NCBI RefSeq assembly: GCF_000271485.2
Contig: NZ_AKVN02000001.1
Location: forward strand, 1,802,001-1,866,000
Length of the DNA: 64,000 bases
Reading direction: 5' to 3'
Origin: Pelosinus fermentans DSM 17108
GTDB lineage: Bacteria > Bacillota > Negativicutes > DSM-13327
Shown here piece after piece: positions 4,173-52,815 of the stretch. The stretch's first letter is position 1, and every line of letters starts with the position of its first letter. The translations under genes and the position numbers were made by a program. Below the pieces are notes generated by a model, which saw nothing but the letters and a program-made list of their open reading frames with translations, ran no database searches and was not told the origin of the DNA.

Positions 4173-5423
4173 ATGAAAATTGTAAATGTTGTATGTTCAA
4201 AAGGTCGTACTGGTTTTTATTTTGATGATCAACGGGCTATTAAAGCGGGAGCTCAGCATGATGGTTTTAGCTATGTAGGAGAAACGGTTACTCCTGGATT
4301 TCATTCCATTCGTCAAACTGGGGAAGCTGTATCCGTAATGATCGTATTAGAAGATGGACAAGTGGCTTACGGCGATTGTGCTGCTGTACAATACAGCGGA
4401 GCAGGCGGACGTGACCCTTTGTTTTTAGCCGAAGATTTTATTCCTGTGATTGAACAAGAAATTAAACCACGTCTCGTGGGTCGTGAATTAACTTCCTTTA
4501 GACAATTGGCAGGCGAAATTGACAGCATGGTTGATGCTAAAACAGGTAAACTCATCCATACTGCACTGCGTTATGGCGTAACCCAAGCAATTTTAGATGC
4601 TGTCTCCAAAGCAAAACATAAATTGATGTGTGAAGTAGTTGCAGAAGAATATAATACGACTGTTAGTGAAACCGCAATCGATATTTTTACCCAGTCTGGG
4701 GATAATCGCTATGATAATGCTGATAAAATGATCATCAAAGGGGCGCAGGTATTACCTCATGCCTTAATTAATAATGTAGAAGAAAAATTAGGCAAGAATG
4801 GTGAATTGCTGCTTGAATATGTTACTTGGCTGAAGAATCGGATACTAAGCTTGCGTACCAGCAATTCTTATAATCCTGTACTGCACATTGATGTATACGG
4901 TACAATTGGTGCTGCCTTTGATTTGGATACCGAAAGAATGGTCTCTTACTTCCGTGAATTAGAAAAAGCGGCTGCTCCTTTAAAACTTCGCATTGAAGGC
5001 CCAATGGACGTAGAAGATCGCGAAAAACAAATGTTAGCGTTAAAAGAAATTACGGCTCGTTTGCACGAAGAAAAGATCAATGTAGAAGTGGTTGCTGATG
5101 AATGGTGCAATACACTGGAAGATATTAAATATTTTGCTGATAATAATGCTGGTGATATGCTGCAAATCAAAACACCGGATTTAGGCGGAATTAACAATAC
5201 CATCGAAGCTGTTTTATATTGTAAAGAAAAAGGCGTAGGTGCATACCAAGGCGGTACTTGCAACGAAACAGATCGTTCCGCACAGGTTTGTGTACATCTT
5301 GCTATGGCAACCAAACCAGTACAGATGTTAGCAAAACCAGGCATGGGCGTGGATGAAGGCATTATGATTGTATATAATGAAATGCAGCGTATCTTGGCTG
5401 TTCGCCAGGCTCGTAAGGCGTAA
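4173..5423 (+). CDS. mal: Methylaspartate ammonia-lyase
   Basis: Enolase-superfamily enzyme that removes ammonia from 3-methylaspartate to give mesaconate, the second step of methylaspartate fermentation. The expected metal ligands and catalytic residues are visible in order: a His in LPHALIN, Asp in HIDVYG, Glu in RIEGPMD, Asp in VADEWC and the catalytic Lys in QIKTPDLGG. I chose ATG 4173 (416 residues, family about 413) over the upstream ATG 4158 because GGAGAG at 4160-4165 is correctly spaced to it. It ends 2 bp before the next gene, so the two are probably co-translated. Confidence 0.95.
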   Translation: MKIVNVVCSKGRTGFYFDDQRAIKAGAQHDGFSYVGETVTPGFHSIRQTGEAVSVMIVLEDGQVAYGDCAAVQYSGAGGRDPLFLAEDFIPVIEQEIKPRLVGRELTSFRQLAGEIDSMVDAKTGKLIHTALRYGVTQAILDAVSKAKHKLMCEVVAEEYNTTVSETAIDIFTQSGDNRYDNADKMIIKGAQVLPHALINNVEEKLGKNGELLLEYVTWLKNRILSLRTSNSYNPVLHIDVYGTIGAAFDLDTERMVSYFRELEKAAAPLKLRIEGPMDVEDREKQMLALKEITARLHEEKINVEVVADEWCNTLEDIKYFADNNAGDMLQIKTPDLGGINNTIEAVLYCKEKGVGAYQGGTCNETDRSAQVCVHLAMATKPVQMLAKPGMGVDEGIMIVYNEMQRILAVRQARKA

Positions 5424-5425
5424 AT

Positions 5426-6358
5426 ATGAGAATGTTAATGCATGAGCAATTAATGTATGCTAGTTATTTTGCACCCAGAGGACGTAATCGTATGTTTGTT
5501 CTGGGGCAGCAGATTAGTGAACGTTATTTGTCACCATTGGATCGTCTAATTGGCATTGTTGGTGGTCCTGGTGCAGGTAAATCTTCCTTAATTAAAGGTA
5601 TGTTTCCTGGATTAGAATTAACAAATGATGATGATGGTGTAAATGTACGTCCCTTGCCTTTGCTCAAAAATATTGAAAAAGATTTCTTTTCCAGTCATAC
5701 CTATCATATTGATATTCGTTTTGAGTTGGCATTTACTCAACTTCATGTATTAGCAGATGCTATTAAAAAAGCATTATCTCATGATAAACGGGTCATAGTA
5801 GAACATTTTGATCTGTTATATCCTGCACTGGGGGCGAATGCTGACGTGCTCTTAGGCGTAGGCGGGGAGGTTATCGCTGTTCGTCCTAATGTTTTTGGTC
5901 CTTTTCCCCAGGAAATTGCTGATGTGGTTGTAAAGACTTTAAAGTATCGTAAAATGGCTCATACTGCTGAAGATCTGACAGAGAGTATTTTATTAAAAGA
6001 TTATGGTGCTATCTTGCCTTTTGGTCACAGAGATGTACATCATGGTTTTGTCCTGGAATATCCTGTAGAGCTTGATGCCGATCTAAAGGAAGTTGAAAAA
6101 AAGGTTAAAGCATTCATTGATGAGGGGCTGAAGGTTTGTTACTCAGATGAAGGGCATATTGAAATTGGTGATGTTTCATGGGCGTGTACGGGACCGCGGA
6201 CCCATGTGCATAATACGGAAGATATTGAAGGTTTTCGTCTGCTCCATGAATATAAATATGACCCTAAAACGAAAACTTACCTTATTATTGGCTTGGTAGG
6301 ACCATTAGAAGAGAATCTTGATGGTTTTTCCAGCATGATCTTTCATGCATCATTGTAA
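5426..6358 (+). CDS. P-loop protein with alanyl-tRNA-synthetase-like SAD motif, function unknown
   Basis: A 310-residue protein whose function I do not recognise. Residues 46-54 are a Walker A motif (GGPGAGKSS), and RVIVEHFD around 122-129 could be a Walker B strand. The C-terminal half resembles the second additional domain of alanyl-tRNA synthetase: His201, His205 and His206 in GHRDVHHGF and Cys254, His260 in CTGPRTHVHNTEDI recall the HxxxH and CxGTHV zinc/editing motifs. It follows mal by 2 bp, so it belongs to the glutamate mutase operon. A role in enzyme maturation, reactivation or nucleotide-driven metal delivery is possible, but this is inference. No B12-binding motif is seen. Confidence 0.8.
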   Translation: MRMLMHEQLMYASYFAPRGRNRMFVLGQQISERYLSPLDRLIGIVGGPGAGKSSLIKGMFPGLELTNDDDGVNVRPLPLLKNIEKDFFSSHTYHIDIRFELAFTQLHVLADAIKKALSHDKRVIVEHFDLLYPALGANADVLLGVGGEVIAVRPNVFGPFPQEIADVVVKTLKYRKMAHTAEDLTESILLKDYGAILPFGHRDVHHGFVLEYPVELDADLKEVEKKVKAFIDEGLKVCYSDEGHIEIGDVSWACTGPRTHVHNTEDIEGFRLLHEYKYDPKTKTYLIIGLVGPLEENLDGFSSMIFHASL

Positions 6359-6378
6359 AAGTGTATAATTAGCTGTAA

Positions 6379-6415
6379 ATGGGTACTGTCTTCTTCAAGA
6401 GAAGGCAGTACCCAT
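6379..6415 (+). terminator. Terminator-like hairpin after the glutamate mutase operon
   Basis: Sixteen paired positions (6379-6394 with 6400-6415, one G-U) around a 5-nt loop, 20 bp after the stop of the P-loop gene. No T-run follows, so it may be a weak terminator or an mRNA 3' end stabiliser that lowers read-through into citD. Confidence 0.55.
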
Positions 6416-6480
6416 AAGAGCATCAAAATCATGATTGCACAAAGATACATATAAAGAATTTTCATTAGGAGGTTAGAAAA

Positions 6481-6774
6481 ATGGCAAGTATTGCAAAAAC
6501 TGCTCAAGCGGGAACCTTAGAATCAAGTGATGTTATGATTACTGTAGCTCCTGGTACCCAAGGAAGCGGTATTGTTATTGAATTAGAAAGTATTGTCCTG
6601 GCTCAGTACGGTGAAGATATTAAGATCATCTTAGAGAAAACGGTGAAGGATCAGGGGATTACGGATATCTATATTAAGGCAGTAGACCGGGGAGCGCTGG
6701 ATTGTACCATCTGCGCTCGGACTCTGGCTGCATTAAGCCGGGCAGGTGCTGTGCTAAAGGAGGAAATCATATAA
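6481..6774 (+). CDS. citD: Citrate/citramalate lyase acyl carrier protein (gamma subunit)
   Basis: Acyl carrier subunit of the lyase complex; it carries the 2'-(5''-triphosphoribosyl)-3'-dephospho-CoA thiol on a serine. The attachment sequence GTLESSD places that serine at residue 15. Length of 97 residues is normal, and AGGAGG lies 8 bp upstream of ATG. It is the first gene of citD-citE-citF-citC, whose stop/start codons overlap. Next to the methylaspartate genes the complex may well act on citramalate rather than citrate; the sequence alone does not separate the two. Confidence 0.93.
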   Translation: MASIAKTAQAGTLESSDVMITVAPGTQGSGIVIELESIVLAQYGEDIKIILEKTVKDQGITDIYIKAVDRGALDCTICARTLAALSRAGAVLKEEII

Positions 6775-7646
6775 TGGATTTAAGAAGAAGTATGTTATTT
6801 ATTCCAGGAAATAATCCCGGAATGCTGCAAAATGGCGGTGTATTTGGCGCAGATTCGGTTATTCTGGATTTAGAAGATGCTGTGGCTCCCATGGAAAAAG
6901 ATGCAGCCCGGTTTTTGGTTGCCCAGGTTCTGCGCACTGTGGATTATGGAGTTAGTGAAACTGTGGTTCGGATTAATCCTTTAGATACCTTTGCTGCTGT
7001 GGATATTAAAGCGATTGTTCCATGTTGCCCTGATGCAATTCTAGTGCCAAAAGTAGAAAGTGCAGCTGATATTCATCAAGTGGCTGCTATGATTGCCGCG
7101 GCGGAAAAACCAGAGCAAACACCTGTGAAGATTATTGCTCTATTAGAAACACCTTGCGGGATTGTCGAAGCGTATCATATTGCGAAGGCGGACCCGAGGG
7201 TAGTTGCTCTTGCTTTAGGTGCAGAAGATTATACAGCAGGTCTGGGGGCTATGCGTACCAAAGAAGGTACTGAGATCTTTACAGCACGTACCATTGTTAT
7301 CAATGCAGCTGCGGCTGCGAATGTTCAATCCATTGATACTCCTTATACCGATGCGAATGACGAAGAAGGTCTGCTTGCCGATACACAGCTGGCTAAGAGA
7401 TTGGGCTTCAAGGGGAAATTGTCCATCAATCCTAGGCAGATTGATGTAATTCATACTGTATTTAACCCAAGTCTAAATGATATTGATTGGGCCCAGCAAG
7501 TCATCCATGCCATTCGTAAAGCAGAAGCTGAAGGATCAGGTGTGGCGTCATTAAATGGTAAGATGGTGGATTTGCCAATTGTAAATCGTGCAGAACGCAT
7601 CTTGCATTTAGCAGAATTGTTAGGTTTGATGGGGGGAGAAAAATAA
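6774..7646 (+). CDS. citE: Citrate/citramalate lyase beta subunit (citryl/citramalyl-ACP lyase)
   Basis: Cleaves the acyl-ACP intermediate (citryl-ACP to acetyl-ACP and oxaloacetate, or citramalyl-ACP to acetyl-ACP and pyruvate). The 290-residue chain has the HpcH/HpaI aldolase-like fold: RRSMLFIPGNNP at the N-terminus, LDLEDAV with acidic metal ligands, VRINP with the substrate-binding Arg, and GAEDYTAGLG. The start is the ATG whose first A is also the last base of the citD stop; AAAGGAGG lies 10 bp upstream. Longer in-frame upstream sequence overlaps citD and is unlikely to be translated. Confidence 0.93.
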   Translation: MDLRRSMLFIPGNNPGMLQNGGVFGADSVILDLEDAVAPMEKDAARFLVAQVLRTVDYGVSETVVRINPLDTFAAVDIKAIVPCCPDAILVPKVESAADIHQVAAMIAAAEKPEQTPVKIIALLETPCGIVEAYHIAKADPRVVALALGAEDYTAGLGAMRTKEGTEIFTARTIVINAAAAANVQSIDTPYTDANDEEGLLADTQLAKRLGFKGKLSINPRQIDVIHTVFNPSLNDIDWAQQVIHAIRKAEAEGSGVASLNGKMVDLPIVNRAERILHLAELLGLMGGEK

Positions 7647-9187
7647 TGAAAAATGCAATTGGACGTGAAATACCTGAAACCATTTCCGGCATAGCAGCAA
7701 TAAAGCCCTTTGCTGGTGCTTTTGCTACCGTACCAGAAATGACACGTCAGGCACCTAAGGTCAAAACCATAAAACCTGCCGATCGCAAATTGGTCGATAA
7801 CTTAGTTGAAGTATTTAAAAAGATACCCGTAACCGATGGAATGACCTTGTCTTTTCATCATCACTTCCGAAATGGTGATGGCGTTGTAAATATGGTCCTG
7901 GCAACTGCGGCGCAGTTAGGATTGAAAAACCTAACCGTTGCGTTAAGTTCTGTCTTTCCTGTACATGCACCGATTATTGAACATGTAAAAAATGGTGTGG
8001 TAACGGGACTTGATACGAATTATATGTCCGGTCCAGTCGCTCAGGCTGTATCGAAAGGATTATTTGATAAACCTGTCGTTCTGCGTACTCATGGCGGACG
8101 CGGACGAGGGATTGAATGTGGTCAGCTTAAAATCGATGTGGCGTTTATTGCAGCGCCGGCAGCTGATGAATATGGTAACCTAAATGGTGTAGAAGGTCCG
8201 GCAGCATGCGGTTCACTCGGTTATGCTTTTCCTGATGCTCAATATGCAGATTATGTAGTGGCTGTGACGGATTATATAGGTGAATACCCTCTATCACCTA
8301 TATCCATACCTCAGACGAGGGTAGATTATGTAGTAAAAGTAGAATGTGTCGGGGACCCTAAAGGTATTGTTTCGGGTACGACTCGTATTACGAAAGATCC
8401 AGTTGGACTTAAAATTGCTGAAACGGCAGCAAAAGTAATTCAAGCTACTGGACTTATAAAAAATGGATTTGCATTTCAAACAGGTGCAGGTGGGGCTTCC
8501 TTAGCAACGGCTGCTTTTGTCCGGAAAATGATGGAGAAGGATAATGTTGTGGGGAGTTTTGCCTTAGGCGGCATTACTGGCTATATGGTGGATATGCTGG
8601 AAAGCGGTTTGTTTAAGAAATTGATGGATGTTCAGGGGTTTGACTTAGAAGCGATTCGTTCTTTATCTACCAATCCAAATCACTTAGAAATTGGTGCTGA
8701 TTTTTATGCAAGTCCATTTAATGCCGGATGCGCCGTTAATCAGCTGGATGTGGTCATTCTAGGAGCTACAGAAATGGACACTGATTTTAATGTGAATGTA
8801 GTTACAGGCTCCGATGGCGTTATTATGGGTGGTTCAGGCGGCCATGCAGATGCAGCGGCAGGTGCAAAAGTTACGATCATCGTAGCCAATTTATTACGTG
8901 GACGTTTGCCCATTATTGTGGATAAAGTGCTTACAGCCACGACTCCAGGTGAAACGATTGATGTTCTTGTTACAGAAAGAGGTGTGGCAGTAAATCCTCT
9001 TAGAGCCGATTTAAAAGAAAAATTCCTGGCAGCAGGATTGCCGGTAAAAGATATACAAGAATTAAAGCAATTGGCAGAGAAAATAGCCGGAGCCCCTAAA
9101 GCAGTAAAGACAGGCGAAAAGATAGTTGCAGTAGTAGAATATCGTGATGGCACGATTATCGATGTTGTGCGTCAAGTGGAGGGCTAG
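7646..9187 (+). CDS. citF: Citrate/citramalate lyase alpha subunit (ACP transferase)
   Basis: Catalyses the exchange of acetyl for citryl or citramalyl on the acyl carrier protein. 513 residues, typical for the family, with coenzyme-A-transferase-like features such as GMTLSFHHHFRNGDG near the N-terminus and SDGVIMGGSGGHADAAAGA in the C-terminal half. Its ATG overlaps the citE stop by one base, and its own stop abuts the ligase start, so the four genes form one translationally coupled unit. Confidence 0.93.
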   Translation: MKNAIGREIPETISGIAAIKPFAGAFATVPEMTRQAPKVKTIKPADRKLVDNLVEVFKKIPVTDGMTLSFHHHFRNGDGVVNMVLATAAQLGLKNLTVALSSVFPVHAPIIEHVKNGVVTGLDTNYMSGPVAQAVSKGLFDKPVVLRTHGGRGRGIECGQLKIDVAFIAAPAADEYGNLNGVEGPAACGSLGYAFPDAQYADYVVAVTDYIGEYPLSPISIPQTRVDYVVKVECVGDPKGIVSGTTRITKDPVGLKIAETAAKVIQATGLIKNGFAFQTGAGGASLATAAFVRKMMEKDNVVGSFALGGITGYMVDMLESGLFKKLMDVQGFDLEAIRSLSTNPNHLEIGADFYASPFNAGCAVNQLDVVILGATEMDTDFNVNVVTGSDGVIMGGSGGHADAAAGAKVTIIVANLLRGRLPIIVDKVLTATTPGETIDVLVTERGVAVNPLRADLKEKFLAAGLPVKDIQELKQLAEKIAGAPKAVKTGEKIVAVVEYRDGTIIDVVRQVEG

Positions 9188-9189
9188 TG

Positions 9190-10239
9190 ATGTTGTGGGG
9201 CACTATGGAAGAGCGGGTAATCAATCTGAATAATGCTAGACAGGTTAGTGCCGTGAGAGAGTTTCTCTCCAGATTTTCCTTAACCTTTACTGAACAAGTA
9301 GACTATACCATTGCCTTATATAAAGATGATTCTATTGTAGCGACAGGTTCGTTTGCTGGAGAAGTATTGCGTAACATTGCGATTGATGAGTCACTGCAGG
9401 GGGAAGGTCTGACGTCAGCAGTCGTCAGCCATTTAATGCAGGAAGCAGGACGGCGGGGAATCTATCATTATTTTATTTTCACCAAGCCTGACAAGGCGCA
9501 TTTATTTAGTGCATTAGGATTTAAAGAAGTTGGTCGGGCAGATCCATATGCGGTGCTTTTAGAAGCTGGTATCGGGTCGATTGATTCGTATTGTAAGGAG
9601 ATGGCTGCTTTGACAGTCCATCTGCCTTCAGGAAAAAGAGCTGGCTTAGTAGTAAACTGCAATCCTTTTACTTTGGGACATCAGGCGGTAATTGCCAAAG
9701 CAGCTAAAGAAAATGCAGCTGTAGTGGTATTAGTAGTCAGTGAAGAGGGATCTGTATTCCCTTTTGACATCCGCTTTTCTTTGGTGAAGCAGGGATTAGC
9801 CGGCTATGATAACGTAGTCGTGCTGCCAGGAGGTAAATATATTGTGTCGGCTGCTACATTTCCTGGCTATTTTACCAAGGGAGACGAAACGGTAACAGCG
9901 CAGACAAGGCTGGATGCTACTATTTTTGCTAAACATATTGCACCTGCCATGGGGATTACTTGCCGGTATATGGGGGATGAACCGTATTGCTTAGTGACAA
10001 AGGCTTATAACCAAGCAATGCTCGAAATTTTACCACAGCATGGGATTAATGTGCTGGAAATGCCAAGGATTTCTGTTCAGGGAGATGCTGTGAGTGCCTC
10101 GAGGGTTCGAGAACTCTTAAGGCAGGAAGAATGGGAGGAAATTCAGACTTTAGTACCAGATACGACTTATCAATTCCTTCGCTCTCCTGCAGCTATTCCT
10201 ATTATAGAAAAAATACAAAGCAGTATATCGAGACATTAA
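9190..10239 (+). CDS. citC: [Citrate (pro-3S)-lyase] ligase
   Basis: Acetylates the prosthetic thiol of CitD using acetate and ATP, switching the lyase on. The first 130 residues look like a GNAT acetyltransferase fold (NIAIDESLQGEGLTSAVVSHL), followed by a nucleotidyltransferase domain starting at VVNCNPFTLGHQ with the HxGH-like element and ending with SASRVRELL. About 349 residues, normal for CitC. ATG 9190 is preferred to GTG 9187 because GGAGG at 9179-9183 is better spaced to it. No citX or citG, needed to make the prosthetic group, follows. Confidence 0.92.
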   Translation: MLWGTMEERVINLNNARQVSAVREFLSRFSLTFTEQVDYTIALYKDDSIVATGSFAGEVLRNIAIDESLQGEGLTSAVVSHLMQEAGRRGIYHYFIFTKPDKAHLFSALGFKEVGRADPYAVLLEAGIGSIDSYCKEMAALTVHLPSGKRAGLVVNCNPFTLGHQAVIAKAAKENAAVVVLVVSEEGSVFPFDIRFSLVKQGLAGYDNVVVLPGGKYIVSAATFPGYFTKGDETVTAQTRLDATIFAKHIAPAMGITCRYMGDEPYCLVTKAYNQAMLEILPQHGINVLEMPRISVQGDAVSASRVRELLRQEEWEEIQTLVPDTTYQFLRSPAAIPIIEKIQSSISRH

Positions 10240-44074: not shown

Positions 44075-44189
44075 AGCAGTGGTTTAAACATCATATAGTA
44101 ACGATGCAGAAGTAGAAGGAGGGAGCTAATCACTCCCTATCTTCTTTATGACGAAAAAAATAGAAATGAGAAGAGAGGAGGGTATCATC

Positions 44190-44489
44190 ATGGAGGGCGT
44201 AGCGTTGATTTTTAAAGCACTGGGGGATGATATTCGCCTGGAAATTGTACGGATGCTGATTGATAAGGAACTTTGCGTATGTGATATTTTAGCGGCTTTC
44301 GATAAATCACAGCCGGCCATTTCACATCATCTAAAGATCTTAAAGCAATCCGGCATTGTAGTGGATAGCCGCGACGGCAAATGGATTTATTACCGATTAA
44401 ATCCGGAAGCATTTAATCAGGTTGAGGTCTTTTTGCAGTTGTGTAAAACGGCAACGAATGAACGGTATAGAACTTGTAGCCCTAATTAA
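44190..44489 (+). CDS. arsR: ArsR-family arsenic-responsive repressor (copy 1)
   Basis: 99 residues from ATG 44190, which follows GAGGAGGG by seven bases. The winged helix protein has the As(III)-binding ELCVCDIL motif in its recognition-helix region and the DNA-reading SQPAISHHLKILKQSGIV. In the absence of arsenite it should repress nearby ars promoters; a good palindromic operator lies about 115 bp downstream. It sits after the CoA-disulfide-reductase gene and before a truncated ACR3 gene. Confidence 0.9.
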   Translation: MEGVALIFKALGDDIRLEIVRMLIDKELCVCDILAAFDKSQPAISHHLKILKQSGIVVDSRDGKWIYYRLNPEAFNQVEVFLQLCKTATNERYRTCSPN

Positions 44490-44584
44490 AATACAATAAG
44501 CCAGGATAATTTTTAGTTGTCGATTGTAGCTAGGGGCAGGTAGTGCTTTTGCATGCTGGTCATGTAAGTGTTGTTAATTATTTG

Positions 44585-44622
44585 TTGACACATATGAGTA
44601 AAATCGAATATAATCATATTCG
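44585..44622 (+). promoter_or_regulatory. Promoter with ArsR-type operator, upstream of the ACR3 remnant
   Basis: TTGACA (44585-44590), 18-bp spacer, TATAAT (44609-44614). The perfect inverted repeat CGAATAT (44605-44611)/ATATTCG (44616-44622) covers the -10, as expected for repression by an ArsR protein. The only ars gene it now leads to is a truncated ACR3. Confidence 0.65.
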
Positions 44623-44838
44623 AAAGGAAAACCACATCTTGATCCATAGAAGTTGCTAAGAAGTACTTAAGATTTTGGCTGACGAGCGAGAATTTTAAAG
44701 GTGACAAAATTCCAAGAAGATGGTGGCAGTTGGTTAGTAGGCTGTCGAATTTGATAAGGTGAAATTTCGGATAATTGTGTTGGAAGTAATTTAACATCTC
44801 TTGAGTAAACGGTTGTCAAAATTCTTGTTGGATTAACT

Positions 44839-45120
44839 TTGGACTTTTTTGAAAGATATTTAAGTTTATGGGTGACATTTTGTATTGTGATTGGTGTCGG
44901 TTTTGGCAAGGCGTTTCCTGGGGTAGTTGATTCATTGAGTAAAATGGAAATCAGCCATGTGAATTTACCCATTGCAGTTTTAATCTGGCTAATGATTTAC
45001 CCTATGATGCTAAAATTTGATTTTTCCGCTATCCTGAAAGTCGGCGACAGACCGAAAGGACTATTCATCACTTTGTTTGTTAATTGGTTAGTAAAACCTT
45101 TCAGCATGACTCAGCACTAG
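44839..45120 (+). pseudogene. ACR3-type arsenite efflux pump, N-terminal remnant
   Basis: This 93-codon frame reads as the first two to three membrane segments of ACR3: LDFFERYLSLWVTF, VGFGKAFPGVV, NLPIAVLIWLMIYPMMLKFDF and LFITLFVNWLVKPFSM are family hallmarks. It then ends abruptly with a stop, whereas the full protein has about 350 residues. No start codon with a ribosome site is present; only TTG 44839 is available and an in-frame stop lies at 44806. So both ends are damaged and the arsenite exporter is inactive. The following 290 bp show no continuation. Confidence 0.8.
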
Positions 45121-45444
45121 TTTGATTTTGAATCAAAGTCGGTAAAAGAAAAAGCCTAGATATTATTTCTAGTATTGGTAGTCCTACATTGTTTGGCAAT
45201 ATCTGAGGTTCGGGTGAAACTAGAAGCTGCTATTTCGAACCTAGCATCGCTCCTAATACAATTGGTTTCTCAACAAGAAGGTCAAAAATAAACTATGTAA
45301 GGTCTGACTCTTTATGTGACTAAGAAATGCATATGGGATCATATTGACAAAATTAAAGCCCTAATACATGATTAAAAATGAATATAGACATATACTGGGA
45401 ATGCTAATACTTTGTTTGATTTGATGGTAAAGGAGGTAGTCACA
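45121..45444. other. Gap between the ACR3 remnant and the second arsR
   Basis: No gene recognised. TTGACA at 45344-45349 with a weak CATGAT (45367-45372) at 17 bp is a possible promoter for arsR-arsD-arsA. Confidence 0.35.
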
Positions 45445-45804
45445 TTGAGTATAACACGAATCGTAAAAGCTTTAGGGGATGGAACCAGACTTAGGATTGT
45501 AAATTTATTACGAGTTGAAAATTTATGTGTATGCGAAATTGAAGCCATACTCCAAAGTAGTCAGTCTAACGTGTCTAGGCATTTGGCAAAACTTCGCGAT
45601 GCGGGTATTATTTATAGTGAGAAAAAATCACAGTGGGTATACTATGGAATTAACGCAGATATAATAAAGGAGCATTCCTTTATAAAAACTTTATTAGATG
45701 AAGACTTTGGCAAACATCTTCAGTATCAACATGATATAGCTACGCTGAGAACGTATCGTGAACAGAACTATGAATGCGGGCCGTTAGAAACTACAAGTGC
45801 TTAG
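45445..45804 (+). CDS. arsR: ArsR-family arsenic-responsive repressor (copy 2)
   Basis: 119 residues from TTG 45445, seven bases after AAAGGAGGT; the longer frame from 45412 lacks a ribosome site. It has the As(III)-binding NLCVCEIE motif and the helix-turn-helix SSQSNVSRHLAKLRDAGII. It heads arsR-arsD-arsA and should control that set. It differs clearly in sequence from copy 1, so the two probably came from different ars operons. Confidence 0.9.
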   Translation: MSITRIVKALGDGTRLRIVNLLRVENLCVCEIEAILQSSQSNVSRHLAKLRDAGIIYSEKKSQWVYYGINADIIKEHSFIKTLLDEDFGKHLQYQHDIATLRTYREQNYECGPLETTSA

Positions 45805-45891
45805 CACTTGTTTTTATTAAATACTATATGAGTATAATTTAATATAGGCATGTACGATTATTGTAAGGAATAAATTAAAGGGGCGATAAAA

Positions 45892-46263
45892 ATGAGTAAA
45901 ATTGAAATTTTTGATCCAGCAATGTGTTGTGCAACAGGAATTTGCGGACCTGGTATTGATCAAGAGCTTTTAAGAGTGGCTACGACTGTGAATGCTCTTA
46001 CTAAGAAGGGCGTTACGATCATTCGCTATGGTCTTTCTAGTGAGCCGCAAGCCTTTATCGATAATAAGAGGGTAAATGAGTATTTGATGAAGGAAGAAGT
46101 GGAAGTTTTACCGATTACAATCGTAGATGGAGAAGTGGTTAAGACCAGGAGCTATCCGACAGCGGATGAATTTGCTCAGTGGTCAGGTGTAGCGAAAGAA
46201 GAACTAGCCGCTGCTGCTGAAAAAGAGAATGGCTGTGGTTGTGATGAAGGTGGATGTTGCTAA
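45892..46263 (+). CDS. arsD: Arsenite metallochaperone
   Basis: 123 residues. ArsD delivers As(III) to the ArsA ATPase; the essential Cys12, Cys13 and Cys18 are present in DPAMCCATGICGP, and a C-terminal cluster CGCDEGGCC gives additional thiols as in the classical protein. The thioredoxin-like core is normal in length. It lies 87 bp after arsR and 21 bp before arsA. Confidence 0.95.
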   Translation: MSKIEIFDPAMCCATGICGPGIDQELLRVATTVNALTKKGVTIIRYGLSSEPQAFIDNKRVNEYLMKEEVEVLPITIVDGEVVKTRSYPTADEFAQWSGVAKEELAAAAEKENGCGCDEGGCC

Positions 46264-46284
46264 GTCAAAGTAGGAGGCTATTAC

Positions 46285-48036
46285 ATGTATAAATTATTTA
46301 ATCCAGATAATATAAAGCTGACAAAGTATTTATTTTTCACCGGCAAAGGCGGGGTAGGGAAAACTTCGACAGCCTGCGCCACTGCAATTACCTTAGCAGA
46401 TCAAGGTAAAAAGGTTTTATTAGTCAGCACCGATCCAGCATCGAATTTGCAGGATGTTTTCGGTATCAGCCTTACGAGTAAAGGCACTCCCATTCAAGAG
46501 GTACCTAATCTTGTAGTTGCTAATCTGAATCCGGAAGAAGCTGCAAAGGCTTATAAAGAATCAGTAATTGCACCTTATAAAGGTAAGCTTCCAGCAAGTG
46601 TTTTACAAAACATGGAGGAACAGCTTTCCGGGTCTTGCACCGTAGAGATTGCAGCTTTTAATGAGTTTTCTAATTTTATTACCGATGAAAAAACACAAAT
46701 AGAATATGACCATATTCTATTTGATACGGCACCAACGGGTCATACTTTACGGATGCTGCAACTACCATCTGCATGGAGTAATTTTATTAGCGAAAGCACC
46801 CATGGAGCATCTTGTCTGGGGCAATTGTCGGGCCTGGAAAGCAAAAAAGAAGTATATAAGAATGCTGTTAGTACTCTAGCAGATGACAAATTGACGACCT
46901 TGATTTTAATCTCTAGACCTGAATATTCCCCGCTGCAGGAAGCAGAGCGAGCTTCTAGAGAACTGAAGGAATTAGGAGTTCATAATCAGCTATTAGTTGT
47001 GAATGGTGTACTAGAATTAGATGTTGAGAATGATGAAATCGCAGATAAACTATATGCTAAGCAACAAGAGGCATTACGGAATATACCTGAATCTTTACAT
47101 GAAACTCCGACTTATAAAATTCCATTACGCGCCTATAATGTAACAGGAATTAAAAATATCAGAATGCTGTTAAAAGAAGATTATTTAGAAAGCCAAAATT
47201 ATAAGCTAAATAAAGAAGAATTGCCTAAAGTCAAAGCTTTAATTGAGGACCTTTACGCATCGAAAAAAAGAGTAATCTTCACTATGGGAAAAGGCGGCGT
47301 CGGAAAAACGACCTTAGCAGCGGCGATTGCCATTGGTCTTGCTGAGAAAGGGGTAAAAGTACATTTGACAACCACCGACCCGGCAGACCATCTGAAATTT
47401 GTAGTAGAAGAAGGTCATGGAATTCGGCTAAGTAAGATTGACGAGAAGGAAGAACTACGTAATTACACGGAAGCTGTTTTGTCAAAGGCAAGAGAAACAA
47501 TGGCAGAAGAAGACATTGCGTATGTAGAAGAAGATCTTCGCTCTCCCTGCACCCAGGAAATCGCCGTATTTCGTGCTTTTGCTGAGATTGTAGATAATGC
47601 GGATGATGAGATTGTAGTGATTGATACGGCACCTACTGGTCACACGTTGCTGCTATTAGATGCTACACAGAGTTATCATAAAGAAATACAAAAATCCCAA
47701 GGTGATATACCAGAAGCCGTGAAGAACTTATTGCCAAGATTACGAGATGAAAAAGAAACAGAAGTAGTCATTGTAACTCTTCCAGAGGCTACTCCAGTAT
47801 ATGAAGCAATGCGATTACAAGAAGATCTAAAAAGAGCAGGTATTAATAACAAATGGTGGGTTATTAATTCAAGTTTACTCATGACGAACACCCAAAGTCC
47901 ATTATTAAAAACAAAATCCTTAAATGAAATTCCTTGGATCAATAAAGTGGATGAAATAGCGCAAGGCAACTTTGCTGTAATTCCCTGGAAAGGCGAAGAA
48001 ATAAAAGACGAAAAATTAGTAGACTTAATCAGATAA
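46285..48036 (+). CDS. arsA: Arsenite-transporting ATPase
   Basis: 583 residues with two homologous halves, each with a P-loop (GKGGVGKTS at about 20-28 and GKGGVGKTT about 331-339) and the DTAPTGHT switch. Metal-binding cysteines are in HGASCLGQ, GSCTVEIA and SPCTQEIA. It normally binds ArsB or ACR3 and energises arsenite export; no intact partner pump is found in this window. AGGAGG precedes ATG. Confidence 0.95.
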   Translation: MYKLFNPDNIKLTKYLFFTGKGGVGKTSTACATAITLADQGKKVLLVSTDPASNLQDVFGISLTSKGTPIQEVPNLVVANLNPEEAAKAYKESVIAPYKGKLPASVLQNMEEQLSGSCTVEIAAFNEFSNFITDEKTQIEYDHILFDTAPTGHTLRMLQLPSAWSNFISESTHGASCLGQLSGLESKKEVYKNAVSTLADDKLTTLILISRPEYSPLQEAERASRELKELGVHNQLLVVNGVLELDVENDEIADKLYAKQQEALRNIPESLHETPTYKIPLRAYNVTGIKNIRMLLKEDYLESQNYKLNKEELPKVKALIEDLYASKKRVIFTMGKGGVGKTTLAAAIAIGLAEKGVKVHLTTTDPADHLKFVVEEGHGIRLSKIDEKEELRNYTEAVLSKARETMAEEDIAYVEEDLRSPCTQEIAVFRAFAEIVDNADDEIVVIDTAPTGHTLLLLDATQSYHKEIQKSQGDIPEAVKNLLPRLRDEKETEVVIVTLPEATPVYEAMRLQEDLKRAGINNKWWVINSSLLMTNTQSPLLKTKSLNEIPWINKVDEIAQGNFAVIPWKGEEIKDEKLVDLIR

Positions 48037-48122: not shown

Positions 48123-48602
48123 TCAGGATTGTGTATTATACATGCCCTTGCTTTGCATGTATTGGAAGAGCCCTTGCCCATGTCCTTGCTCTTCTTTTTG
48201 AATGTGGTTAAGCGCTTGACGTGCATTAGGATCAGCAAATTCGAAGATCGCCGTATCATAGGCTCCGGAGACAAATTTTTCTGTCATTAACATATCCGTA
48301 CAGAGAGTACTATCGCTTTGACTTGCAATAGAACCTTGAGGGGATGATGAAGTTGTAGTTGAGTTGCTTTGCCCGGATTGTTGATTTTGCTGTGAAGTCA
48401 TATTGGGAATTTGACCGTTTAGCATTTGGTTGATAGTATTTAGGTGCTGCTGCTCTTGTCCAGCGTAGGAGTTAAACAACTGCTTTAGAGCTGGATCTTG
48501 GGCTTGGTTGGCATAAGACTGGTATTTCTCGACACAGATTTGCTCGTGCTTTTTTTGATCTTCCAATAAAGATTTTTCCTTTGGGGTTAACTGTAGCGTC
48601 AT
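48123..48602 (-). CDS. Coat-F-like (ferritin-like) spore coat protein
   Basis: 159 residues in two helical halves joined by a Gln/Ser/Thr-rich linker of about 35 residues (centre near residue 85). The first half (KHEQICVEKYQSYANQAQD, QEQQHLNTINQML) and the second (TEKFVSGAYDTAIFEF, ALNHIQKEEQGHGQGLFQYM) have the spacing of His/Glu of ferritin-like CotF domains. ATG 48602 is chosen because AGGAGGTG lies six bases before it; the upstream GTG belongs to that site. Probably a spore coat component; metal binding is possible but not shown. Confidence 0.75.
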   Translation of the reverse strand: MTLQLTPKEKSLLEDQKKHEQICVEKYQSYANQAQDPALKQLFNSYAGQEQQHLNTINQMLNGQIPNMTSQQNQQSGQSNSTTTSSSPQGSIASQSDSTLCTDMLMTEKFVSGAYDTAIFEFADPNARQALNHIQKEEQGHGQGLFQYMQSKGMYNTQS

Positions 48603-48787
48603 ATATATCACCTCCTACTACTATTTTGTTTCATAGCTTAAATTTTATTCATAATTGTATAAAGAGGTAAGTGATACAAAGAAAACAGAGTACGAAGAAC
48701 ATCGAGAGTAGAATTTGTTTCTATCTTCTCCGTTGTGTTCTCTGTGTTTTCTCTGTTTTAACAGTGTGGCATTTCTTACAATTTTAT

Positions 48788-51107: not shown

Positions 51108-51416
51108 TTAATCGCGACGAGGCCAGCAGGAATTAGGATTGCAAGGTCGAGGCCAGCATTGTTGTTGGCGGGGCCAACACTGCTGATGAGGCGAGCATTG
51201 TTGTTGACGGGGCCAGCATTGTTGTTGACGAGGCCAACACTGCTGACGGGGCCAGCACTGCTGCTGACGAGGCCAGCAAGAAGATGACGGACCGCACCCT
51301 ACAATAATGACTCGTTCATCATCATCGTCATCATCCCAGTCAGACATTTCTGGTCGATCCCATTTAGGTCTTTGTTCGTTATTATCATAGTAATCATCAT
51401 CATCGTCATAATACAT
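51108..51416 (-). CDS. Cys-Trp-Pro-Arg repeat peptide, candidate RiPP precursor or coat protein
   Basis: 102 residues in two parts. Residues 1-36 are very acidic (Asp runs at 4-8 and 28-33) with Tyr and Trp, resembling a leader; residues 41-102 are Cys/Gln/Arg-rich with seven copies of CWPR at 47, 54, 60, 67, 80, 87 and 97 and one degenerate CSPH at 74, mostly spaced by QQQ or QQ. AAAGGAGG lies just before ATG. It follows the radical SAM/SPASM gene by 45 bp on the same strand, so it is the obvious substrate candidate. A spore coat or matrix role is the alternative; both may hold. Not recognised as a named family. Confidence 0.75.
   Translation of the reverse strand: MYYDDDDDYYDNNEQRPKWDRPEMSDWDDDDDDERVIIVGCGPSSSCWPRQQQCWPRQQCWPRQQQCWPRQQQCSPHQQCWPRQQQCWPRPCNPNSCWPRRD
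51123..51283. repeat. Tandem 18-21 bp repeat encoding the CWPRQQ units
   Basis: Imperfect units around GGCCAGCA-TTGTTGTTGACG on the + strand, the reverse of codons for Cys-Trp-Pro-Arg-Gln-Gln. Unit length alternates between 18 and 21 bp, and third positions vary, so the repeat has been kept by selection at the protein level or refreshed by slippage. Confidence 0.8.
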
Positions 51417-51461
51417 ACTTATATCCTCCTTTTTAGTCTAAAGATACTCGCTATATCGAGG

Positions 51462-52694
51462 TTACCACTCACCGGTATAAGGATTATAGGAACAGGCAGC
51501 AGGAGGGGCCAGCCATGACTTATTAGAATCGTTGCCTTGGGCTAACGGACGACAATCCGTGCAAGCATAGCGATATTCACAATCCTTACATTTTTGGATT
51601 TGATTTTTAGTCGTGTGCCAGCATTGTTGTAGTGGATGATCTGTAAGTACATCAGCTAATGAATGCGTGAGAATATTGCCGCATACTTGATTTCTTGCAA
51701 AGATGCAAGGTATGACATCACCTGTAGAAGTAATCGCAATTTTTCCTGCCAGGCATTGGCAGTAAGTCTGAGAAGCTATAAAAGAAGCTTCATCGGTGTA
51801 AAAGGGCGGTTTAATCGGCGGCTTGGTATAAGTAGTTGGAAGTAAATGCTGATCGTCCCCTCTGCCGGTGGGGCGAATAACATCGGGATACGCATCGGGC
51901 ATGCCCAATTCTTCATAAAGCTTAAGAATATTGGGTACTTCGTGTTCGTTGGCTTTCATAATAATAGAAGCAATGCGTAAAGGAATCTTGGCTTCTAATA
52001 TTTTCTTGATGGCAGTCATGGTTTTCGTAAAGCTATTAGGATGCAAGGTTACGCTGTCATGGACGGAGGCGTTATTAGCATAAATAGTTGTAGCGATGTT
52101 TACATTATATTGTTTAAAGAAATCGATACAGTCATCATCAACTAATGTAGCGTTTGTAAAGATTTCGATATATTCATAACCGATTTCATAGGCCTTGATG
52201 ACTAGGTCGCGCCATTTAGGATATAGTAATGGTTCACCGCCAATGAATTGAATATCAGTAGCTCCTGCTGCTTTTGCTTCTTCTATTAGGGAGAGCCAGC
52301 GGTGATGAGGTACGAGATCCAATTCCTTGCGTGAAGGGCCGCTTTCGGAGTAACAGTGTAAACACTTGCTGTTGCAGGCTGCTGTTAGTTCTAACCACAG
52401 AAACTCAAGTTTTGCGGGGGAATCTGGCAAGGAGCGCTCTGGCAAAGAAGCAGAAGATGTTTCGTCAAAGAATCCTAAATCTTTTTGTTCCAACTTATTT
52501 AAGAAATTCATGTATTGTGTGCTTTCGGCAGACGACATATCCCAAAGATCCTCCAAGGCGTTGCTTTGACAGGCACTGAGTAGCCCGGCTGCACTTTGGT
52601 TAATGGAATGAACCTTTCCCGTTTTAAAGTCGTAGATTGCAGCACGAACAGCACCTTTCACTAATTTGCAGTGTTTTTGTAAGTTATAATACAA
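51462..52694 (-). CDS. Radical SAM/SPASM peptide-modifying enzyme
   Basis: 410 residues. Residues 1-60 (VKGAVRAAIYDFKTGKVHSI) resemble the small recognition domain at the head of some SPASM maturases; the radical SAM core has Cys107, Cys111 and Cys114 in CNSKCLHC and GGEPL at 152-156; the C-terminus is cysteine-rich (TYCQCLAG, VIPCIF, KCKDCEYRYACTDC, AACSY), fitting a SPASM domain with extra iron-sulfur clusters. Such enzymes cross-link ribosomal peptides. Start TTG 52694 follows GGAGG by eight bases. The repeat peptide directly downstream is the likely substrate. No transporter or protease is nearby. Confidence 0.88.
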   Translation of the reverse strand: MYYNLQKHCKLVKGAVRAAIYDFKTGKVHSINQSAAGLLSACQSNALEDLWDMSSAESTQYMNFLNKLEQKDLGFFDETSSASLPERSLPDSPAKLEFLWLELTAACNSKCLHCYSESGPSRKELDLVPHHRWLSLIEEAKAAGATDIQFIGGEPLLYPKWRDLVIKAYEIGYEYIEIFTNATLVDDDCIDFFKQYNVNIATTIYANNASVHDSVTLHPNSFTKTMTAIKKILEAKIPLRIASIIMKANEHEVPNILKLYEELGMPDAYPDVIRPTGRGDDQHLLPTTYTKPPIKPPFYTDEASFIASQTYCQCLAGKIAITSTGDVIPCIFARNQVCGNILTHSLADVLTDHPLQQCWHTTKNQIQKCKDCEYRYACTDCRPLAQGNDSNKSWLAPPAACSYNPYTGEW

Positions 52695-52786
52695 CAGATC
52701 AGCCTCCTTTTATGGTGGATTTATTACATAATATGCAAAAAACGGTATCTTGGTGTGTGTCATCTTTCAAAAAAAACAATCGGATG

Positions 52787-52815
52787 TTGACAAAAAATAA
52801 GATTACATATATAAT
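52787..52815 (+). promoter_or_regulatory. Consensus promoter of tRNA-Gly(GCC)
   Basis: TTGACA (52787-52792), 17-bp spacer, TATAAT (52810-52815), 35 bp before the tRNA. Confidence 0.85.

Follow-up and report, generated by a model that had tools for sequence, protein, structure and literature searches.

Most of what is known about RiPP enzymes concerns secreted antibiotics, signals and cofactors. The described systems closest to the locus studied here are the sactipeptides (SkfB/SkfA, AlbA, streptosactin GggB and suisactin QmpB) and the ranthipeptides (CteB and PapB). Small consecutive thioether rings are known among the sactipeptides: QmpB makes rings with a single intervening residue, and streptosactin carries consecutive four-residue rings (PMC13361665). 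Anaerobic sulfatase maturases (anSME) are also SPASM enzymes and attack the C-beta of Cys (PMC8326336). In this study, we follow up an earlier note on a stretch of 64,000 nucleotides from Pelosinus fermentans DSM 17108, called the window below, which lies in a genome of 5.0 Mb in two contigs. Our results lead us to propose that the window probably encodes part of a sporulation RiPP-like system, in which a leader-guided enzyme would act on about five coat-type proteins and modify the Cys in each of their C-x-P units, most likely into small thioether rings.

The enzyme and one of its putative substrates form a two-gene operon with the following features.

52694..51462, minus strand: radical SAM/SPASM enzyme ORF of 410 aa, with a TTG start behind AAGGAGG; its parts are an RRE-like N-terminal domain (residues ~1-80), a radical SAM core (C107/C111/C114) and a 7-Cys SPASM domain
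51416..51108, minus strand: substrate-type peptide of 102 aa, with an acidic leader containing PKWDRPEMSDW and then 10 C-x-P units
51297..51416, minus strand: leader region of the peptide (residues 1-40), with the W[DE]xPE[IM]x[DE]W motif, before the first C-x-P
52725..52735, minus strand: CATATTATGTA, the operon promoter's -10-like element, ~30 bp ahead of the TTG start codon
51027..51056, minus strand: terminator-like hairpin with a 13 bp stem (-21.5 kcal/mol, z -6.8)

The earlier note had described a 410-residue radical SAM/SPASM enzyme, a gap of 45 bp and a 102-residue peptide with seven CWPR units, and the ORFs and Pfam searches confirm all of these, with the peptide ORF downstream of the enzyme ORF, both on the minus strand, and the enzyme above cut-off for PF04055 (E 1e-17) and PF13186 (E 2e-7). 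The hairpin has a short U/A-rich tail, was missed by a simple terminator scan and closes the operon, in which, as the note had said, there is no transporter or protease gene. One flank, its ORFs identified by reading, holds tRNA-Gly and then tig, clpP, clpX and Lon-type proteases, and the other holds an amino-acid permease and the Coat_F protein that the note had also pointed to (48611..48123, E 2e-26 in Pfam). A perfect 12/12 TTGACA-17-TATAAT promoter lies at 52787-52815 on the plus strand, ahead of the tRNA-Gly gene and divergent from the enzyme operon. At 44148-48036, two ArsR-like ORFs, an ArsD-like ORF and a double-domain ArsA-like ORF were seen by eye only, as was a 93-aa ACR3-like ORF between them that is possibly a broken arsenite pump gene.

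The enzyme carries the two signatures of radical SAM/SPASM proteins, namely CxxxCxxC (C107/C111/C114) and the seven-Cys SPASM motif C-x9-15-G-x4-C / C-x2-C-x5-C-x2-3-C / C, which here reads C314-x10-G-x4-C330, C369-x2-C372-x5-C378-x2-C381 and C401. All seven SPASM Cys are invariant in an alignment of 50 orthologues and five distant enzymes that adjoin CxP peptides, while residue 338, Cys in 82% of the orthologues and His in the distant enzymes, is a possible extra cluster ligand. An AlphaFold2 model (9 rows) is fair at residues 1-80 and in parts of the core and poor in the SPASM part, with pLDDT mostly below 50 past residue ~275. Its N-terminal domain is RRE-like, with strands followed by helices and pLDDT mostly 55-90, and a profile search of this domain against PqqD/RRE profiles gave zero matches. 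An enzyme-leader fusion model, folded as the in-frame read-through of the operon, was uninformative, with pLDDT mostly below 30 in leader and core. Foldseek placed SuiB, SkfB, MoaA and CteB at the top ranks for the enzyme model; VIA-align gave a Z of 15.1 over 235 residues with SkfB and aligned CteB and TigE through the N-terminal domain with a large rmsd. SkfB is also the nearest solved chain by sequence (E 5e-23). Among the best 25 of 75 matching NCBIfam families, the enzyme reached no cut-off.

In Pfam and NCBIfam, the window peptide has no match above cut-off. The count of exactly seven CWPR units holds, but three further Cys had been overlooked in the earlier note (in CGP, CSP and CNP), and all ten Cys of the peptide stand in C-x-P. 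Homologous peptides were collected with a threshold of four or more C-x-P per ORF; this minimum is thus built into the set, and the near-complete C-x-P fraction is not. Among the resulting 62 distinct leader-bearing peptides, which comprise spore-type peptides and ones with genes elsewhere in the genome, C-x-P accounts for 749 of 770 Cys, the units number 4-26 per peptide, and the leader motif W[DE]xPE[IM]x[DE]W is common to all. In 39 spore-type peptides, x-Pro follows 558 of 562 core Cys, and the other positions around the Cys all vary; position +1 holds F, N, R, Y, W or S, the spacing between Cys is mainly 4 to 7, and Arg is common at +3 (240/561). To judge from these sequences, the conserved parts of the family are the leader motif and C-x-P. 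This is the layout of a RiPP-type precursor: a conserved leader, and a separate core that varies in unit and number, encoded with a modifying enzyme.

The variation within the repeats bears directly on the chemistry. The note had suggested that Trp is joined to Arg in each Trp-Pro-Arg as a three-residue cyclophane, an idea to which the seven CWPR units of the window peptide lend themselves. Across the 749 units, however, x is Trp in only 16% and non-aromatic in 48%, 37 of the 62 peptides have no CWP at all, and orthologous enzymes of about 60% identity pair with CNPN, CRPN or CSPR repeats; in the CxP peptides beside the five distant enzymes, x is rich in D, N, K, S and E. A Trp-Pro-Arg cyclophane can therefore not be the conserved reaction of the family, the aromatic-x-x core motif that marks the three-residue cyclophane class is not conserved here, and we regard this explanation as very improbable. 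Since x is mostly not Trp and often not aromatic, Cys and Pro appear to be at the centre of the reaction. One genome (G005) has two enzyme copies, of which the first goes with CFPR repeats and the second, a 60% identical enzyme, with a CNPN/CRPN-type peptide 2.9 kb away.

Enzyme and peptide recur together. Orthologues of the enzyme (E below 1e-100, 49-99% identity) were found in 50 of 250 Negativicutes genomes, and a profile of the leader and first repeats also matches 50 of these genomes; both occur in 48, the enzyme only in two, the peptide only in two and neither in 198 (kinship ignored). The two peptide-only genomes are incomplete assemblies, and of the two enzyme-only genomes, G025 and G027, the latter has two CxP peptides, both divergent, at a distance of 2 kb from the enzyme. 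In 398 genomes spread over the phylum, the enzyme matched only two distant relatives beyond its own genome and the peptide profile matched its own genome only; searches for the enzyme on plasmids found only partial radical SAM matches. Because the pair recurs across the class, it is not due to chance, and comparative genomics thus gives strong support for a pairing of enzyme and peptide, in keeping with the note's proposal of an undescribed radical SAM/SPASM enzyme-substrate system.

The expectation that the peptide always sits beside the enzyme was correct in that 48 of the 50 enzyme genomes also have the peptide; adjacency itself is usual, not universal, and dispersed copies are often several. 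Most enzyme orthologues have a CxP peptide just downstream. Strict adjacency was dropped as a pairing rule, several orthologues having no peptide within 8 kb and their peptides elsewhere in the genome. The window genome itself has four further CxP peptides, at 2454, 2469.5, 2470.7 and 3687 kb, far from the enzyme, and other genomes have up to fifteen matches to the peptide profile, some of which are two pieces of one gene. In P. fermentans JBW45, whose enzyme is 97% identical to that of the window, the operon peptide (L031 7279-7620) appears frameshifted in its second repeat, with the repeats continuing in another frame, which may reflect either a mistake in the assembly or a mutation of the repeat length.

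Five distant relatives of the enzyme (about 30-36% identity), located by enzyme sequence alone, also adjoin CxP peptides, and these have different leaders. Three of the loci (L077, L079 and L080, at about 5300-9200) have several precursors each, with KLTDExLDKVSGG-type leaders and C-x-P cores such as IGCQPSWSPCEP, and spore-type cores often start with the nearly identical IGCxPSWSPCxP. Together with the peptide of L078 (6/6), the peptides of these loci have 67 of 69 Cys in C-x-P. In another class of the phylum, two peptides with 9/9 and 7/7 C-x-P lie directly upstream of a 36% identical enzyme (L167 5817-7705). The three clusters with ~30% identical enzymes represent a second, non-spore branch of the enzyme family. 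A further distant enzyme (L168, 30%, in G448) has no CxP peptide and probably belongs to another RiPP family. That distant enzymes in non-spore settings also adjoin CxP peptides indicates a tie of C-x-P to the enzyme family that extends beyond spores. These findings also bear on whether the peptides could be plain Cys-rich coat proteins linked through disulfides, with the enzyme acting on something else. Cys-rich repetitive coat and exosporium proteins exist, and the Coat_F neighbour would suit them; against this, disulfides do not need a strict C-x-P, the enzyme and peptide share an operon and co-occur in 48 of 50 genomes, and the non-spore relatives show the same association, which leaves this explanation highly unlikely.

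The distribution of the system follows sporulation. The spoIVA gene was found in 51 of the 250 Negativicutes genomes, with the enzyme in 46; the enzyme occurs alone in four, spoIVA alone in five and neither in 195 (Fisher's p ~1e-39, relatedness ignored). Enzyme and spoIVA occur together in 18 families; in one family (f6), only spoIVA is present. Three genomes (G014, G032 and G048) encode SpoIVA but lack both the enzyme and the peptide, so that the peptide follows the enzyme and not sporulation alone.

A shared promoter points in the same direction. Aligned sites before enzyme and peptide genes show CAC, 17 bases and then CATATTATGTA, an element discovered by reading upstream regions. The exact CATATTATGTA occurs ten times in the 5 Mb genome, and seven of these sites belong to the CxP set: the enzyme operon, four peptides encoded in trans, a small ORF in a peptide cluster and a remnant (L148, G000:C1:596461). 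In this remnant, the frame after CATATTATGTA, read by eye, is leaderless and ends in CWPWQGCWPR-stop, and by its sequence it is a decayed CxP gene. More widely, CATATNATGTA is found upstream of 34 of 48 enzyme orthologues versus 1 of 470 control genes, and 25 trans peptides have the element; of 27 listed misses, about 20 are copies inside operons, where a separate promoter is not needed, and about 7 are genuine misses. None of the four distant CxP enzymes checked has the element, and no clear copy was seen before spoIVA. The Bacillus sigma K consensus has AC at -35, N16-17 and CATAnnnTA at -10. AC-N17-CATATTATGTA matches its -35 and CATA and differs in the final A of CATAnnnTA, so the promoter resembles mother-cell sigma K promoters and is probably closest to sigma K. 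The Bacillus-exact consensus CATANNNTA showed no excess over shuffles on the peptide promoters. As a yardstick for sigma K, dpaA is absent above cut-off from the window genome.

Outside the window, sigK is in two pieces ~7.9 kb apart (profile residues 4-144 and 137-226; G000:C1:2222390-2231000, L171 464-9119). Next to the first piece, in convergent orientation, is the gene of a 517-aa protein whose sequence reads as a large serine recombinase, and AAGGAAATGA stands at both junctions; the arrangement resembles a skin-type element within a Negativicutes sigK.

Taken together, the co-occurrence with spoIVA and the shared promoter make a strong genomic case that the enzyme-peptide system is linked to sporulation, and they support the earlier suggestion that the product stays with the spore instead of being secreted. 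In our preferred reading, the operon is probably a maturation operon that would be transcribed late in sporulation by a mother-cell sigma K-type factor, and four more peptides of the family would be transcribed from matching promoters elsewhere on the chromosome. Binding of the leader motif W[DE]xPE[IM]x[DE]W would fall to the RRE-like N-terminal domain; the radical SAM core, aided by two auxiliary FeS clusters, may then move along the repeat and oxidise one C-x-P unit after another. The likeliest product would be one small Cys thioether ring per C-x-P unit, since several of the nearest relatives make thioethers and Cys is the fixed residue, which also accords with the note's proposal of Cys as a candidate thioether donor. 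The fixed spacing of C-x-P would be compatible with a ring closed on the alpha carbon at +2, which for Pro would be nine-membered by atom count, or with a four-residue ring to +3; since +2 is the sole invariant position near the Cys, the sequences do not single out a thioether acceptor. Once modified, the proteins are probably retained in the spore, as parts of its coat or crust.

Two other reactions on C-x-P have to be weighed against a thioether. The sulfatase maturation motif C-x-P/A-x-R, on which anaerobic sulfatase maturases act, begins with C-x-P, and oxidation of each Cys to formylglycine, an aldehyde that could crosslink coat proteins, is thus the main specific rival. The anSME, which attack Cys C-beta, are among the fold matches of the enzyme, and Arg is common near the Cys of the repeats; this Arg, however, is optional and stands at +3 instead of +4, other families are nearer in sequence than anSME (TIGR03942 is not among the best 25 of 75 NCBIfam families), and the enzyme has Ile331 where anSME have an Asp directly after the second SPASM Cys. 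We therefore consider formylglycine unlikely. Somewhat less doubtful, though still rather unlikely, is another radical SAM reaction such as epimerisation, a C-C crosslink or Pro oxidation: the chemistry of SPASM enzymes is diverse, and Pro at +2, the only invariant partner, could itself be the target, but epimerases would not need C-x-P and the invariance of the Cys argues for a role of its sulfur or C-beta.

The observations of the earlier note are thus confirmed and its interpretation, about half right, is partly supported. An enzyme of this type, Cys-X-Pro proteins and a late-sporulation-type promoter in Negativicutes spore-formers suggest that part of a spore coat is modified like a peptide antibiotic. 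More tentatively, the spore surface of spore-forming Negativicutes might consist partly of radical SAM-modified structural RiPPs, with an undescribed Cys-centred crosslink, for example a 9-membered Cys-to-Pro thioether, in every C-x-P of several dispersed coat proteins, and in other bacteria the same enzyme family would also make C-x-P peptides, with different leaders. A RiPP enzyme here appears to be part of a developmental programme in which the spore-formers of a class have a promoter, a leader and several structural substrates in each genome in common. This makes it testable whether endospore coats contain radical-modified peptides, and the leader WxxPE[IM]xxW with C-x-P provides a simple motif for finding further substrates and enzymes. 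In the open-access literature, we found no prior description of C-x-P RiPPs, Pelosinus RiPPs or radical SAM coat maturation.

Among known systems, sactipeptides and ranthipeptides share with this one a radical SAM/SPASM enzyme that works on Cys and an adjacent short precursor, and the nearest solved relative, SkfB, is a sactipeptide maturase. Here, in contrast, each peptide has 4-26 C-x-P units, genes for export and cleavage are absent nearby, several substrates lie away from the enzyme, the promoter is of sporulation type, the distribution follows spoIVA, and thioethers are only a candidate. The grasp-with-spasm maturase family TIGR04193 is the best NCBIfam match (E 2e-33), mostly through the C-terminal domain including C-Y-N/D-P-Y-x-G-x-W; membership was rejected at 116.5 bits against a cut-off of 175, an ATP-grasp partner is absent at the locus, and a Flavobacterium relative (L038) lacks the CxxxCxxC that the window enzyme has. 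The anSME likewise are SPASM radical SAM enzymes that act on Cys in a C-x-P context and have a comparable core fold (Z 12.5-13.2), whereas at this locus a sulfatase partner is absent and the substrate is a repeat with a leader and many C-x-P per protein. The three-residue cyclophane maturases AmcB and DynA belong to the same radical SAM/SPASM superfamily and give weak, core-level HMM matches, but unlike in their targets, the aromatic first residue of the motif is not conserved in the CxP peptides. Set beside these families, the system would be a new variant of radical SAM RiPP chemistry in an unusual biological setting.
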